From Cytobacillus oceanisediminis (lineage in GTDB: Bacteria > Bacillota > Bacilli > Bacillales > Cytobacillaceae), in assembly GCF_022811925.1 (NCBI RefSeq), contig NZ_CP065511.1, positions 434,001-498,000 of the forward strand: a DNA stretch of 64,000 nt. The letters run 5' to 3'. The notes below the pieces were generated by a model, which saw only the letters and a program-made list of their open reading frames with translations, did no database searches and was not told the origin of the DNA. Every line of letters begins with the position of its first letter. Positions within the stretch are counted from its first letter, which is position 1. This document shows positions 27,709 to 52,703 of the stretch, piece by piece. A program made the translations under genes and the position numbers.

Positions 27709-29403
27709 TTATTTCAACGGCCCATTGTTTTCATCCATCCGGTTATTGCGCGGATTTAACGGGTCGTTTGCCGGATTCATAGATGGATCTGAACTTGTTG
27801 GATTAATCGGTTTATCAGCACTGCTAGGGGCATTGCCTGGTTTCATCTCCGGCATAGCCTTTTTCATCACTGCTTTCGTATCGGCATCTTTATTAATGGT
27901 TGTTTCTTCAAATTTACGATCAAGCTTTTGAAGATACTTGGCAGCAAAGGCTTTCCCTCCCAGACCAAATGATAAGCCGAATGCCAGTGAAAGTGCACCA
28001 AGCGTTAGAATGAACGCAGCATTGACAATAGAAGCGGCAAGACCAAGCTGATCAAGAGCCATAAAGATTGAAATTGCGATAATGGCTGCCTGAGCGACAT
28101 TGGCAAGGAATTTATAATGCGGTCCTTGAAGAATCGTGCTCAGCAATTTCTTAACCAGACTGCCCAGCCACAAACCTACGCCAAGAATGACAAGAGCTGC
28201 AATTACATGAGGCAGGTAGGCAATTACACCTGTCGCCAATGTTACCAGGAAGTCAAGGCCAAGGATATTAAGAGCCTGCACCACAAACAACAGGACAATA
28301 ATCACTTCTGCAATATAGCCAATTACCTGGGAGAAGCTTAAACCATTGCCTGCTGCAGCAGACTTGTTTAATCCCATACCGGAGAAGTAAGAATTCAATC
28401 CGATGCGTTCAAGTAAACTGGAGACGAATTTGCGGACCCATTTTCCGAGCCAAACACCAATCAGCACGAAGAATATAGCTACAGCAATATTCGGCAGCAT
28501 CGTCAGGACATCATTCAGCATGGCAATGGCAGGTCCGGAAATGCCTTCAATATCCAATCTCTCGAGAGCGGCAATGACTGTTGGGATTAGAATAAGAACA
28601 AACACAAATGTGCCAATTACAGATGCCAGGCTTGTCCCTTCAAACAATCGGTTTAAGCCAAGTCTTGCGGTCAGTTTTTCACTTCCAATTGTCTGCAGGA
28701 AATTCGTTACAATATCGCGCACGATTTTCGCAACAAACCAGCCGACAAATAAAATCAGGGCTGCTGCGAGAAGCTTAGGCAAAAAGGCCAGAATGCTTTC
28801 AAGCATGCCGGTGAACGGTCCGGCGATTCCATTCAGGTTTAGAGCTCCCAATACAGCCGGCAGGAATACCAGCAATGTCAGGTAGAAAACAATTTTAGCT
28901 ACGTTATCAATAACATTGACAGGCTGCTCTTTATTGTCTGTTAAATTCCATTTGCTCAGCTTTTCATGTACTTTGAGCGTTCTGCCGCTCTTTCTGATCA
29001 GCAGGCTGAGTCCAGTGGCGATAAGCCATGCGAATAATAGAATTAGAGCTGCTTTCAAAATGCTCGGCACTGCTGCCATTATGGAGGAGAACATGCCCAC
29101 AAGCGGTGCAGCGATAATATCGAGGTCCAATATATTGAAGAACAAGATAAACACGAACACTAACAGGAGATAGTAAATAATCTTGCTGATTATCTTCTCA
29201 GATGAATATTTTCTATTTGCTTTATCAGGGAACACTCTGTCATCAAGGCTGGTTTTACGCAGACCTTTTAAAAGGGCTTTTTCGATTGCTTTTGCAATAA
29301 TCCAGCCAACTAATAATACTAATAGTGCTAATAATAAATCAGGCAGTTTGGCCAAAAGGTAATCAAATCCGCCCCAGTACCGATTATTGTCCAATATTGT
29401 CAC
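27709..29403 (-). CDS. Mechanosensitive-channel-like protein with five conserved TM repeats
   Basis: This 564-residue membrane protein carries five copies of the conserved TM-helix repeat (pattern LP-x-LL-x-A-x-x-x-L-x-x-G-W-x-x-A-K). They start near residues 20, 110, 208, 305 and 393. Near residue 470 a Gly/Ala-rich helix (LTLGALSLAFGLSFGLGG) recalls the pore helix of MscS-type channels. The tail is soluble and Pro/Asn/Asp-rich (about 515-564). These proteins are thought to protect against osmotic shock; this one lacks an obvious MscS beta domain. It is a single gene, with the 52-bp repeat array directly upstream of its promoter region. Confidence 0.8.
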   Translation of the reverse strand: MTILDNNRYWGGFDYLLAKLPDLLLALLVLLVGWIIAKAIEKALLKGLRKTSLDDRVFPDKANRKYSSEKIISKIIYYLLLVFVFILFFNILDLDIIAAPLVGMFSSIMAAVPSILKAALILLFAWLIATGLSLLIRKSGRTLKVHEKLSKWNLTDNKEQPVNVIDNVAKIVFYLTLLVFLPAVLGALNLNGIAGPFTGMLESILAFLPKLLAAALILFVGWFVAKIVRDIVTNFLQTIGSEKLTARLGLNRLFEGTSLASVIGTFVFVLILIPTVIAALERLDIEGISGPAIAMLNDVLTMLPNIAVAIFFVLIGVWLGKWVRKFVSSLLERIGLNSYFSGMGLNKSAAAGNGLSFSQVIGYIAEVIIVLLFVVQALNILGLDFLVTLATGVIAYLPHVIAALVILGVGLWLGSLVKKLLSTILQGPHYKFLANVAQAAIIAISIFMALDQLGLAASIVNAAFILTLGALSLAFGLSFGLGGKAFAAKYLQKLDRKFEETTINKDADTKAVMKKAMPEMKPGNAPSSADKPINPTSSDPSMNPANDPLNPRNNRMDENNGPLK

Positions 29404-29519
29404 TCCTTAAAAAAATTTGTAGAATTGCATACTTTCATATACCCACTGCTTTTAGGAGTAAACAGTCCTCTTTAAATAGTCCGTTATGAAGGAGAATATC
29501 GTAAAGAACCCTGCGCTAA

Positions 29520-30039
29520 TTCGGACAGTAGGAGATGAATTCTGGTCAAGTGAGTCCGAACATGGTAAAACTTCGGACAGTAGGAGGTGAATTCTAGTCA
29601 AGAGAGTCCGAACCCGGTGCAACTTCGGACAGGAGAAGAAGAAATCCGCAGGAGAGAGTCCGAACATGGTAAAACTTCGGACAGTAGGAGGTGAATTCTG
29701 GTCAAGAGAGTCCGAACCCGGTGCAACTTCGGACAGGAGAAGAAGAAATCCGCAGGAGAGAGTCCGAACATGGTAAAACTTCGGACAGTAGGAGATGAAT
29801 TCTGGTCAAGAGAGTCCGAACCCGGTGCAACTTCGGACAGGAGAAGAAGAAATCCGCAGGAGAGAGTCCGAACATGGTAAAACTTCGGACAGTAGGAGGT
29901 AAATTCTGGTCAAATGAGTCCGAACCCGGTGCAACTTCGGACAGGAGAAGAAGAAATCCGCAGGAGAGAGTCCGAACATGGTAAAACTTCGGACAGTAGG
30001 AGGTGAATTCTGGTCAAATGAGTCCGAACCCATGCAACA
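29520..30039. repeat. Tandem array of ten 52-bp modules with palindromic ends
   Basis: Modules start at 29520, 29572, 29624, 29676, 29728, 29780, 29832, 29884, 29936 and 29988, exactly 52 bp apart. Each opens with TTCGGAC and has GTCCGAA at offset 34. Bodies are of two kinds: A (contains GTAGGAGGTGAATTCTGGTC) and B (contains GAAGAAGAAATCCGCAGGAG). The order is A-A-B-A-B-A-B-A-B-A, so the higher-order period is 104 bp. Links between modules alternate CATGGTAAAAC and CCCGGTGCAAC, each flanked by GTCCGAA and TTCGGAC and so able to form a 7-bp hairpin with an 11-base loop. It is non-coding: 52 is not a multiple of 3. Confidence 0.9.
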
Positions 30040-30047
30040 GCCTTTAA

Positions 30048-30080
30048 AGAAAAAAGACTTTGGAGTGGATCTCCAAAGTC
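30048..30080 (-). terminator. Terminator of the drug/metabolite transporter gene
   Basis: On the minus strand GACTTTGGAG and CTCCAAAGTC form a perfect 10-bp stem around a 5-base loop, then TTTTTTCTTT. Confidence 0.85.
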
Positions 30081-30111
30081 TCCTGAAGATAATTTTTGCC
30101 GTAAAAACTCA

Positions 30112-31005
30112 TTACGTGCTAAAACGATTCTTTGCTGCTTTTTTAAATGAGAATTGCGGAATGCTGATTCCAATCAGGATCAGCACAATTCCGAAAGTCT
30201 GTGCTACTGAAATTCTTTCGCCAAGAATCAGCATGGCAGCAGCGACAGCAGCCGGGAGTTCGGCAGAACCTACAATTGTGGCAAGCCCTGAATCTAAATG
30301 GGGTGAACCGATTGCAAAGAATACAATTGGGAAAATGGCGCCGAACAATGCCATCAGCAGCCCGAATTTCCATAGTCCTTCAAGCTGAATGCCGCCGCTT
30401 ATTAAGACGGGGCCTGAAACAGCTGCAACCAAAAGAAGTCCGCCAAATGTGATGAAGATGCTCCTCTGGATGGTTGGAATTCCTTTACCTGCCTTGCCGC
30501 TCGCAAAAATGAATACGGCAAATGTAACCGCTGATAATAAGCCATAGATCAGTCCATCAGCTTGAATAGGGTGTGACCCGGAATTCATCAGGTTGCTAGC
30601 AAATACAGTTCCTATAATAAGCAAGATCGAAGAAATGATTTTTGTTTTGCTGGGCATCTTTCTTTCATATAGGGCTTCTAAAAGAATCCCTATCCAGGTG
30701 AACTGAAATAAGAGAACAACAGCGATGGAGGCCGGATTCCGGCCGAGGCTCATTCCATAAAGAATGCCTGTTAAACTTAGGGAGGCACCGGTCAATAACA
30801 AAGCTGCTGTTTGTTTAAGGGTGATTTTCGTTCTTTTGATAAATGGGAAAGAAAGCAACAACAAAAGGAGCCCAAATAAATATTGGCTTCCGGTCAATTC
30901 AGGAACAGAGTGGCCGGCCAGGAGTCCGAGCTTTACAATGGATGCCAGAATGCCATAACTGCATGCACCAAGAAAAATAAATAAAGAATATTTTAAGTTT
31001 GCCAT
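30112..31005 (-). CDS. EamA-family (DMT) transporter
   Basis: The product is about 297 residues with ten membrane helices in two EamA halves. The first half includes LKYSLFIFLGACSYGILASIVKLG and the second GLIYGLLSAVTFAVFIFASGKAGK. Members export amino acids or other small metabolites; the substrate is unknown. The start is the ATG 8 bases after AAAGGAG. An in-frame ATG 48 bases earlier has no ribosome site. It lies just past the repeat array, with its own terminator between them. Confidence 0.82.
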   Translation of the reverse strand: MANLKYSLFIFLGACSYGILASIVKLGLLAGHSVPELTGSQYLFGLLLLLLSFPFIKRTKITLKQTAALLLTGASLSLTGILYGMSLGRNPASIAVVLLFQFTWIGILLEALYERKMPSKTKIISSILLIIGTVFASNLMNSGSHPIQADGLIYGLLSAVTFAVFIFASGKAGKGIPTIQRSIFITFGGLLLVAAVSGPVLISGGIQLEGLWKFGLLMALFGAIFPIVFFAIGSPHLDSGLATIVGSAELPAAVAAAMLILGERISVAQTFGIVLILIGISIPQFSFKKAAKNRFST

Positions 31006-31101
31006 TATGGATACTCCTTTCTGAAGGTGAAATGAGGCAATCAGGTCAATCATAACATCTCAGTGAGCCTATAGGGGAAAGATTTTTTTCTGCACAAAAA
31101 T

Positions 31102-31582: not shown

Positions 31583-31649
31583 TTTTATATTCCCCCTAAG
31601 TTATTTATATATTTATTATAACAAATATTAAATTATAATCAATACTTAT

Positions 31650-31664
31650 TTATAATAATTATAA
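31650..31664 (-). promoter_or_regulatory. Perfect PerR box before dps
   Basis: TTATAATAATTATAA is a 15/15 match to the PerR 7-1-7 consensus. On the minus strand it lies just upstream of a likely promoter, TTGATT (31642-31637), 16 bases, TATAAT (31620-31615). Confidence 0.82.
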
Positions 31665-31763
31665 ATATATAAATTCGAAATCCGCAGTATAACCCTGGCT
31701 GATTATGGTAAAGTGATATAGTACCGCTTAATGGCAAGACATAAAGGTTAGTGAGGATTTTTA

Positions 31764-52592: not shown

Positions 52593-52703
52593 TGACCGAT
52601 AAATAAAAAAAGTGACCGATATCTAGTCCGTTCTGACCGATATATTTAGAATGTGACCGATAAAATATAAAACTGGCCGATAAACTAAAGTAAGTGACCG
52701 ATA
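52593..52703 (+). repeat. Phased array of six TGACCGATA repeats
   Basis: TGACCGATA or TGGCCGATA recurs at 52593, 52613, 52634, 52654, 52674 and 52695, that is every 20-21 bp, all in one orientation. AT-rich spacers separate the copies. The fifth copy has one change (TGGCC). Two helical turns per step would put every copy on one DNA face. There is no ORF and no terminator inside. Confidence 0.85.

Follow-up and report, generated by a model that had tools for sequence, protein, structure and literature searches.

Tandem repeats with a unit of 52 nt were described in Bacillus by Subirana and Messeguer in 2021 (PMC8161180), who found a constant size combined with a variable, species-specific sequence, reported no sequence conservation, left the function open between protein and RNA models and named no partner gene. 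Here we consider an array of this type in a 64,000-nucleotide stretch of DNA from Cytobacillus oceanisediminis (the window). The array has the period of the published class (52, range 51–53) and matches one of its listed families, 79_52_5 of B. oceanisediminis, whose consensus in Table 1 of that paper contains TTCGGAC-N27-GTCCGAA. Like the published repeats, the arrays treated here have a period of 52, form several families per genome and are non-coding; they differ in a common GTC-N19-GAC dyad, covarying arms, a polar A-tract and linkage to one clade of genes encoding NERD-domain proteins. The repeats themselves are already known; their common anatomy looks new.

The closest working likeness is to the REP/BIME elements, palindromic extragenic repeats found beside a RAYT gene, which according to the part of PMC2817692 drawn on here coevolve with that gene and whose abundance goes with its presence. 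In both cases repeats lie beside an enzyme gene and gene presence goes with repeat number, and coevolution with a linked gene holds here by analogy only, with the NERD gene. The differences are that the protein is unrelated (NERD plus a zinc ribbon, not Y1) and that the arrays are found as a rule on the 3' side only, in tandem at a fixed 52 bp. Matches to Y1_Tnp occur in 165 of the 193 genomes of the family, with a 52-bp array beside none of the eight Y1_Tnp loci looked at, and there are none in the window's genome (G000), G042, G085 or G089, which have 91–440 matches to the array pattern defined below. Because the enzyme is unrelated and the window's genome has no Y1 match, the array system is not a member of the REP/RAYT group, and we take it, by analogy, for a repeat-plus-enzyme system that resembles REP/RAYT but whose protein is unrelated.

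Two further groups invite comparison. The GTAG- and CGTC-tagged REPs are palindromes with conserved end tetranucleotides, CGTC being replaced by TGTC in many repeats; in the portion of PMC3733652 that describes them, the CGTC repeats are apparently without a dedicated transposase, and their tags are unpaired and sit at one end. The arrays share palindromes and conserved ends with these elements, whereas here GTC and GAC pair with each other, marking both ends, at a period of 52. CRISPR arrays also consist of regular palindromic repeats beside nuclease-like genes, but they have unique spacers between identical repeats, whereas here the spacers repeat within an array and the 25-bp dyads vary in sequence. 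In the window both bodies and linkers repeat, so that the verdict 'not CRISPR' of a preliminary description of this DNA stands. No Cas family was seen among the 25 families listed of 163 in a Pfam search of 120 array-flanking genes and NERD is not known as a Cas family. NERD appears as a putative CRISPR auxiliary gene in a figure legend of PMC10910872; 52-bp arrays could perhaps pass for CRISPR arrays in automatic searches.

We propose, with a probability of about 0.62, that the array in the window is a dispersed target array of a two-part system composed of a NERD-family protein and 52-bp satellite arrays. The pairing of a NERD clade with arrays looks new: no paper joining the NERD domain with tandem repeats was found in a search that missed most subscription journals.

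The array and its intergenic region

The features of the region are as follows (positions in the window).

27709..29403, minus strand: mechanosensitive ion channel gene, its 5' end facing the array (NF033912, 272.5 bits, above cut-off)
29520..30039, no strand: array of ten 52-bp modules with linkers of two alternating types (direct reading, TRF and genome pattern scan)
29527..29553, no strand: first 27-bp spacer (body) between dyads
29554..29578, no strand: first of nine complete 25-bp dyads GTCCGAA-N11-TTCGGAC (GTC-N19-GAC)
30052..30084, minus strand: terminator-like hairpin of the transporter gene, with the array beyond it (0.9 such sites would arise in the region by chance)
30112..31053, minus strand: transporter gene, which we take to be of EamA type, its 3' end facing the array (sole NCBIfam match TIGR00950, below cut-off)

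The array is made up of ten modules of the form TTCGGAC-N27-GTCCGAA-N11, which start every 52 bp from 29520 to 29988 and in which all 20 half-sites are exact. The bodies follow the order A A B A B A B A B A, and the two linkers, CATGGTAAAAC and CCCGGTGCAAC, alternate in step with them; TRF reports both a period of 52 (score 579) and one of 104 (score 911). The preliminary description had given ten 52-bp modules that begin with TTCGGAC and carry GTCCGAA, copied as a 104-bp unit with one extra A module at the left and placed between two leftward genes, and all of this is borne out; its remark that 52 bp amounts to five helical turns also fits. We consider the conserved unit to be better framed as GTCCGAA-N11-TTCGGAC, a 25-bp dyad that spans the linker, recurs every 52 bp and is last found at 29970–29994. 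Other short tandem repeats detected by TRF in the window lie at 52634–52703 and 31609–31672 (20 and 17/34 bp).

The transporter gene served as an anchor to trace the same intergenic region across the genus, in 14 genomes (its own included) where this gene has 92–100% identity and a readable 3' side. A 52-bp array is present in 12 of the 14. Copy number in the region shifts in complete units and ranges from 1 to about 15: between the same flanks there is a single module in G045, ten in the window and 15 exact GTCCGAA in G035, and in this respect the earlier suggestion of a recombination-prone repeat is correct. In G037 there is no 52-bp array, and a 40-bp (2 x 20) tandem repeat, TTTTTCGCGGATAAAATCAGAATTCCGCAGATATATTCAG, lies just after the transporter gene and ahead of the terminator (L257); 20–21 is the other published size class. 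Twelve more distant orthologues of the transporter gene had no 52-bp array in the stretch read.

Arrays elsewhere in the genome and in relatives

The window's genome holds 131 exact modules TTCGGAC-N27-GTCCGAA, against none for the reversed control, and the array is therefore far beyond chance; the pattern being palindromic, the same 131 are counted on both strands. The same half-sites are found at 20 or more places in this genome at least, one of which is a single module. An exact scan for TTCGGAC-N27-GTCCGAA-N11-TTCGGAC returned at least 117 stretches, and among the 80 matches listed are Cytobacillus, Mesobacillus, Neobacillus, Evansella, Aquibacillus, Texcoconibacillus, Natronobacillus, Robertmurraya, Thalassobacillus, Pullulanibacillus and others. 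Because they are found across many genera, the TTCGGAC/GTCCGAA half-sites are not species specific, and a random local duplication in one strain, which the preliminary description had named as the outcome that would speak against it, is excluded. The distance between neighbours is exactly 52 in 863 of 896 cases at the TTCGGAC loci fetched, which were chosen for exact half-sites and some of which overlap and are counted twice among the 896.

Arrays of the same period with other arms were also seen. They occur at L020:2749-2906, L046:3232-3538, L070:1310-1776 and L084:2846-3101, in genomes that also have TTCGGAC arrays. The window's genome has a 52-bp array of another arm class (GTCGCCATG..) at G000:C1:2374707-2374835, resembling the array behind a NERD gene of G057 (L368), and at G082:C4:86366-87222 two arm classes follow each other in one 52-bp register, GTCACGATT..TTTCTTGAC and then GTCCGAACT..CTTCTGAC. 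The TTCGGAC arrays in record JAGGQZ010000014.1 (L085) stand under the title Chryseobacterium sp. ISL-80, which is probably wrong, the DNA being rather of Bacillales origin.

A common anatomy of the 52-bp unit

The unit shared by these arrays is a 25-bp dyad, GTC-N19-GAC, together with a 27-bp spacer whose middle is a polar A-tract; the inner arms of the dyad vary between arrays and genera, yet covary. We searched for this anatomy with a GTC pattern, defined as GTC-N19-GAC three times at period 52, counting triplets with exact ends. It is present in 155 of the 193 genomes of the family (19 of 25 genera) and absent from 38, the reversed control giving 1–10 matches in 14 of the 193; in the order it is present in 85 of 397 genomes (35 of 135 genera), with control matches in 12 of the 397, up to 11 in number and some of them in genomes without forward matches.

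In 66 arrays from loci picked by the GTC pattern alone, arm positions 4 to 9 are complementary in 64–86% of cases, against 29–43% after shuffling, and the seven strongest column pairs of the 52-bp unit are 4-22, 5-21, 6-20, 7-19, 8-18 and 9-17 together with the flanking pair 26-52. The A-tract at the spacer centre reaches an A frequency of 0.73–0.79 at unit positions 38–40, in units that had been oriented by the A-tract itself. Within arrays (50 compared), diversity is 0.089 at arm positions 4–9, compared with 0.224 in the loop and 0.225 in the spacer; the A-tract, at 0.203, is hardly more conserved than the rest of the spacer, which counts against our preferred explanation. The dyad can also be recognised in the published material, where 7 of the 27 consensus repeats in Table 1 of PMC8161180 contain GTC-N19-GAC (shuffled mean 0.16, maximum 3) and the other 20 do not; three of the same 27 have an N17 version and none has N18 or N20.

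With gene calls taken as plain ORFs, 136 of the 149 arrays that could be used fall outside long ORFs. The genes flanking 147 arrays are tandem in 96 cases, convergent in 40 and divergent in 11, and all gapped gene pairs of the same sequences, array pairs included, are tandem in 280, convergent in 85 and divergent in 102.

When mismatches are read on the A-tract strand, G-T is about as frequent as A-C (58:52 and 114:97), concordance of mismatches within a dyad is not in excess (13:14 and 19:30), and compensatory doubles within arrays number 22 where 18.1 are expected, again without excess. Given the near equality of G-T and A-C mismatches and the lack of excess compensation within arrays, the covariation looks, from these alignments, like a DNA-level rather than an RNA-level signal. 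A symmetric DNA-binding protein would leave just such a trace, with half-sites that are independent yet remain similar over long periods.

A clade of NERD-domain genes linked to the arrays

The commonest Pfam family among array-flanking genes is NERD, with 6 of the 120 genes that came within a size limit out of 176 eligible; the six come from six genomes and all have the array at their 3' end. NERD genes as such occur in 191 of the 193 genomes, mostly without an array. In a quickly built tree of the 119 NERD proteins compared, which is subject to long-branch warnings, all 18 array-linked members (11 found via PF08378 alone and 7 via their arrays) fall into a single clade of 19 (SH-aLRT 99, stem 1.79). 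An HMM of this clade, which was trained on array-linked genes, gives scores of 366–489 inside it and at most 105 outside.

One rule was then applied to all genes found by protein searches, with plain ORFs as gene calls. A 3' array follows 49 of 56 clade genes, 0 of 102 other NERD genes and 2 of 140 genes of unselected stretches, and a 5' array precedes 1 of 38 clade genes (one that lacks a 3' array), 1 of 102 other NERD genes and 0 of 140 genes of unselected stretches. A separate count of 29 clade genes from an HMM search gave 28 with a 3' array and none with a 5' array. Against the linkage, 7 of the 56 clade genes lack a 3' array by the rule, one of them (L433) having an internal stop. This gene, at G062:C3:95321, is the only clade gene found in G062 and has no clear 3' array; the arms of the transporter-site array of the same genome (L260) look mixed.

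In the window's genome the candidate partner of the array is the gene at G000:C1:188528-189439 (plus strand), about 245 kb to the left of the window, which has a TTCGGAC array directly behind it. Two more clade genes are found in this genome: L320 (C1:4812000), with a 52-bp array with arms GTAGTTAAT..ATTAACGCC, and L314 (C1:1399423), with a weak array that the later rule leaves uncounted.

In the protein, a NERD domain bearing a PD-(D/E)XK-type motif lies at the N-terminus and is accompanied by a zinc ribbon, with four cysteines in the clade, and by C-terminal helices that we read as a helix-turn-helix; the candidate of the window's genome scores 65.9 bits against PF08378 (cut-off 22.1), and a structure model has a pLDDT of 89.7. 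Nucleases of the PD-(D/E)XK type share the conserved motif D...(E/D)xK, and in 19 clade proteins D74 and K89 are invariant and position 87 is E or D.

Matching of half-sites and proteins

Genes of the clade were found in 175 of the 193 genomes, in 1–8 copies each, under a count that scored at most 12 candidates per genome at E<=1e-50 and may thus have missed some. Gene and GTC pattern occur together in 151 genomes, the gene only in 24, the pattern only in 4 and neither in 14 (Fisher p 2.5e-8; the genomes are related, which makes p-values optimistic). The exceptions count against a strict pairing: 24 genomes have a clade gene but no GTC-pattern match, G028 has 118 pattern matches with no clade gene at E<=1e-50, and G008, G026 and G078 (66% complete) likewise have matches without a clade gene. 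Gene copies correlate with pattern count overall (Spearman 0.52), in g14 (0.56) and in g18 (0.52), are uncorrelated with it in g1 (rho -0.17, not significant), and in g8 give a non-significant 0.38; the median pattern count rises unevenly, from 0 without a copy to 95 and 180 at six and seven copies.

The sequences of the half-sites follow those of the proteins. For the 37 genes that pass an array-quality filter, half-site similarity tracks protein identity (Mantel rho 0.60, reached in 0 of 2000 permutations), being 0.72 above 85% protein identity and 0.22–0.30 below 50%. The tracking is strongest for the C-terminal region (0.68, against 0.44–0.56 elsewhere in the protein), in a region-by-region comparison where two arrays are counted twice, so that its figure of 29 of 31 does not count independent arrays. 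Within a single genome with five clade genes, G082, three of the linked arrays have clearly different arms (GTCCGAA, GTCACAATA and GTCCGATAG) and two are poorly resolved. Against the trend, L332 belongs to the TTCGGAC subclade yet has other arms.

A second comparison concerns arrays that are dispersed in the genome and those linked to its own clade genes. In 16 genomes, with one array per genome and leaving out G007 and G062 (no linked array) and one-sided genomes, the mean match is 0.82 compared with 0.51 when permuted, a value attained in 0 of 5000 permutations; for the genus only, the figures are 0.83 and 0.59, again 0 of 5000. The match holds in most of the genomes compared and is weak in G029 (0.50) and in G030 (0.75, the linked dyads being poorly resolved), which count against it. 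In the sister species G009 and G010, with one clade gene each, the arms differ in the linked as well as in the dispersed array. A prediction was also run, in which a TTCTGAC right arm at the transporter site was sought behind a NERD gene of the same species. G052 and G053 have GTCCGAA..TTCTGAC in both places and G036 has TTCTGAC behind its NERD gene, with GGCAGAA as the left arm; in G035 TTCTGAC is found behind the NERD gene, but 10 of 16 dyads at the transporter site have TTCCGAC, and the prediction held only in part. Five of the 20 genes in this check were below the array threshold, the G062 gene with the internal stop among them. Linked inheritance or gene conversion among arrays could give part of the match without any action in trans.

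Proposed mechanism and alternatives

We consider that the NERD protein and the arrays are probably a cognate pair. A NERD dimer would bind the symmetric half-sites GTCCGAA and TTCGGAC of each 25-bp dyad, and, with a repeat length of five helical turns, neighbouring dimers would lie on the same side of the helix. Each paralogue would have its own half-site class, shared by the array that follows its gene and by others in the same genome. Nicks or cuts made in array DNA by the nuclease domain would let arrays grow, shrink, become uniform and start at new sites, a part that is ascribed to RAYT in the case of REP/BIME. That the protein drives propagation in this manner is the more tentative part, suggested by analogy, and we put it at a little under even odds. 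The interpretation offered in the preliminary description is therefore supported in part: among its options a protein-binding site fares best, though on indirect evidence, namely half-sites that are constrained against a drifting loop and spacer, and a candidate partner gene.

An alternative that we regard as unlikely, though worth serious attention, is that the arrays are nucleoid or topology elements that dock a protein polymer where transcription units end, the NERD protein being structural rather than an active nuclease. BIMEs, which bind gyrase or HU, are the model for this. The exact five-turn period would suit such a role, as would the avoidance of divergent promoters and the location of 136 of the 149 arrays outside long ORFs, but promoter avoidance is expected of any neutral repeat too. 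A single intergenic region carries from 1 to 15 or so copies in related species, the pattern is absent from 38 of the 193 genomes of the family, and the D74 and K89 invariant in 19 proteins would be needless for a purely structural part. A nucleoid role had been proposed by Subirana and Messeguer (PMC8161180).

Somewhat less probable still is a neutral satellite that hitch-hikes, in which recombination spreads copies of one array that follows an old gene, gene conversion aligns the half-sites and the protein is inert. The variable copy number and homogenised arrays agree with this, and the upstream surroundings of several linked genes are the same in relatives, so that the gene looks stable. 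A neutral satellite does not, however, lead one to expect half-sites constrained relative to loop and spacer inside arrays, both half-sites covarying across arrays, the closest tracking of half-sites by the C-terminal region of the protein, or a period held at 52 in 863 of the 896 partly overlapping neighbour distances.

We give little credence to a role in defence or self-marking, with arrays that sequester or license a nuclease acting on foreign DNA. The NERD part weakly matches domains of the MAD6 and PglW defence proteins, but in fragments only and far below cut-offs; a figure legend in PMC10910872, the part of that source relevant here, lists NERD as a putative CRISPR auxiliary. One stretch of a viral collection contained the GTC pattern, and a search of plasmid records with the window's array gave no match.

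Transcription of the arrays into hairpin strings that act as sponges or small RNAs, the structured-RNA option of the preliminary description, is highly improbable: the covarying arms could form hairpins and, in the part of PMC8625621 drawn on here, B. coagulans satellites appear in RNA-seq, but there is no strand preference for G-T over A-C mismatches, neither concordance within dyads nor compensatory change within arrays is in excess, several species that belong to one lineage have a C-T mismatch at position 4, the window's array lies beyond a terminator-like site, and no Rfam family exceeded its gathering score in 29300–30200 (best 17.1 bits against 81, for IMES-1).

Implications for the Bacillales

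Beyond the window, we lean slightly towards the view that the Bacillales carry an unrecognised repeat-plus-enzyme class, in which NERD–zinc-ribbon paralogues with a diversifying C-terminal specificity would each have a private 25-bp palindrome, spaced at five helical turns in the array that follows the paralogue's own gene and in further arrays across the chromosome; the protein would bind it and drive both its copy number and its spread. If the cognate pairing of NERD protein and arrays is true, it provides the 52-nt satellites with a partner, the first candidate for a long-puzzling class of bacterial repeats, as well as a natural set of matched protein–DNA specificities. A linked and covarying gene makes the function of these enigmatic repeats testable, since both the protein and its binding site can be named and variants of differing specificity exist in nature; a recognition code might also emerge from the many pairs of protein and half-site. 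The REP/RAYT theme would gain a second solution, unrelated to the first, and an active nuclease would make the NERD protein a new kind of repeat-propagating enzyme.
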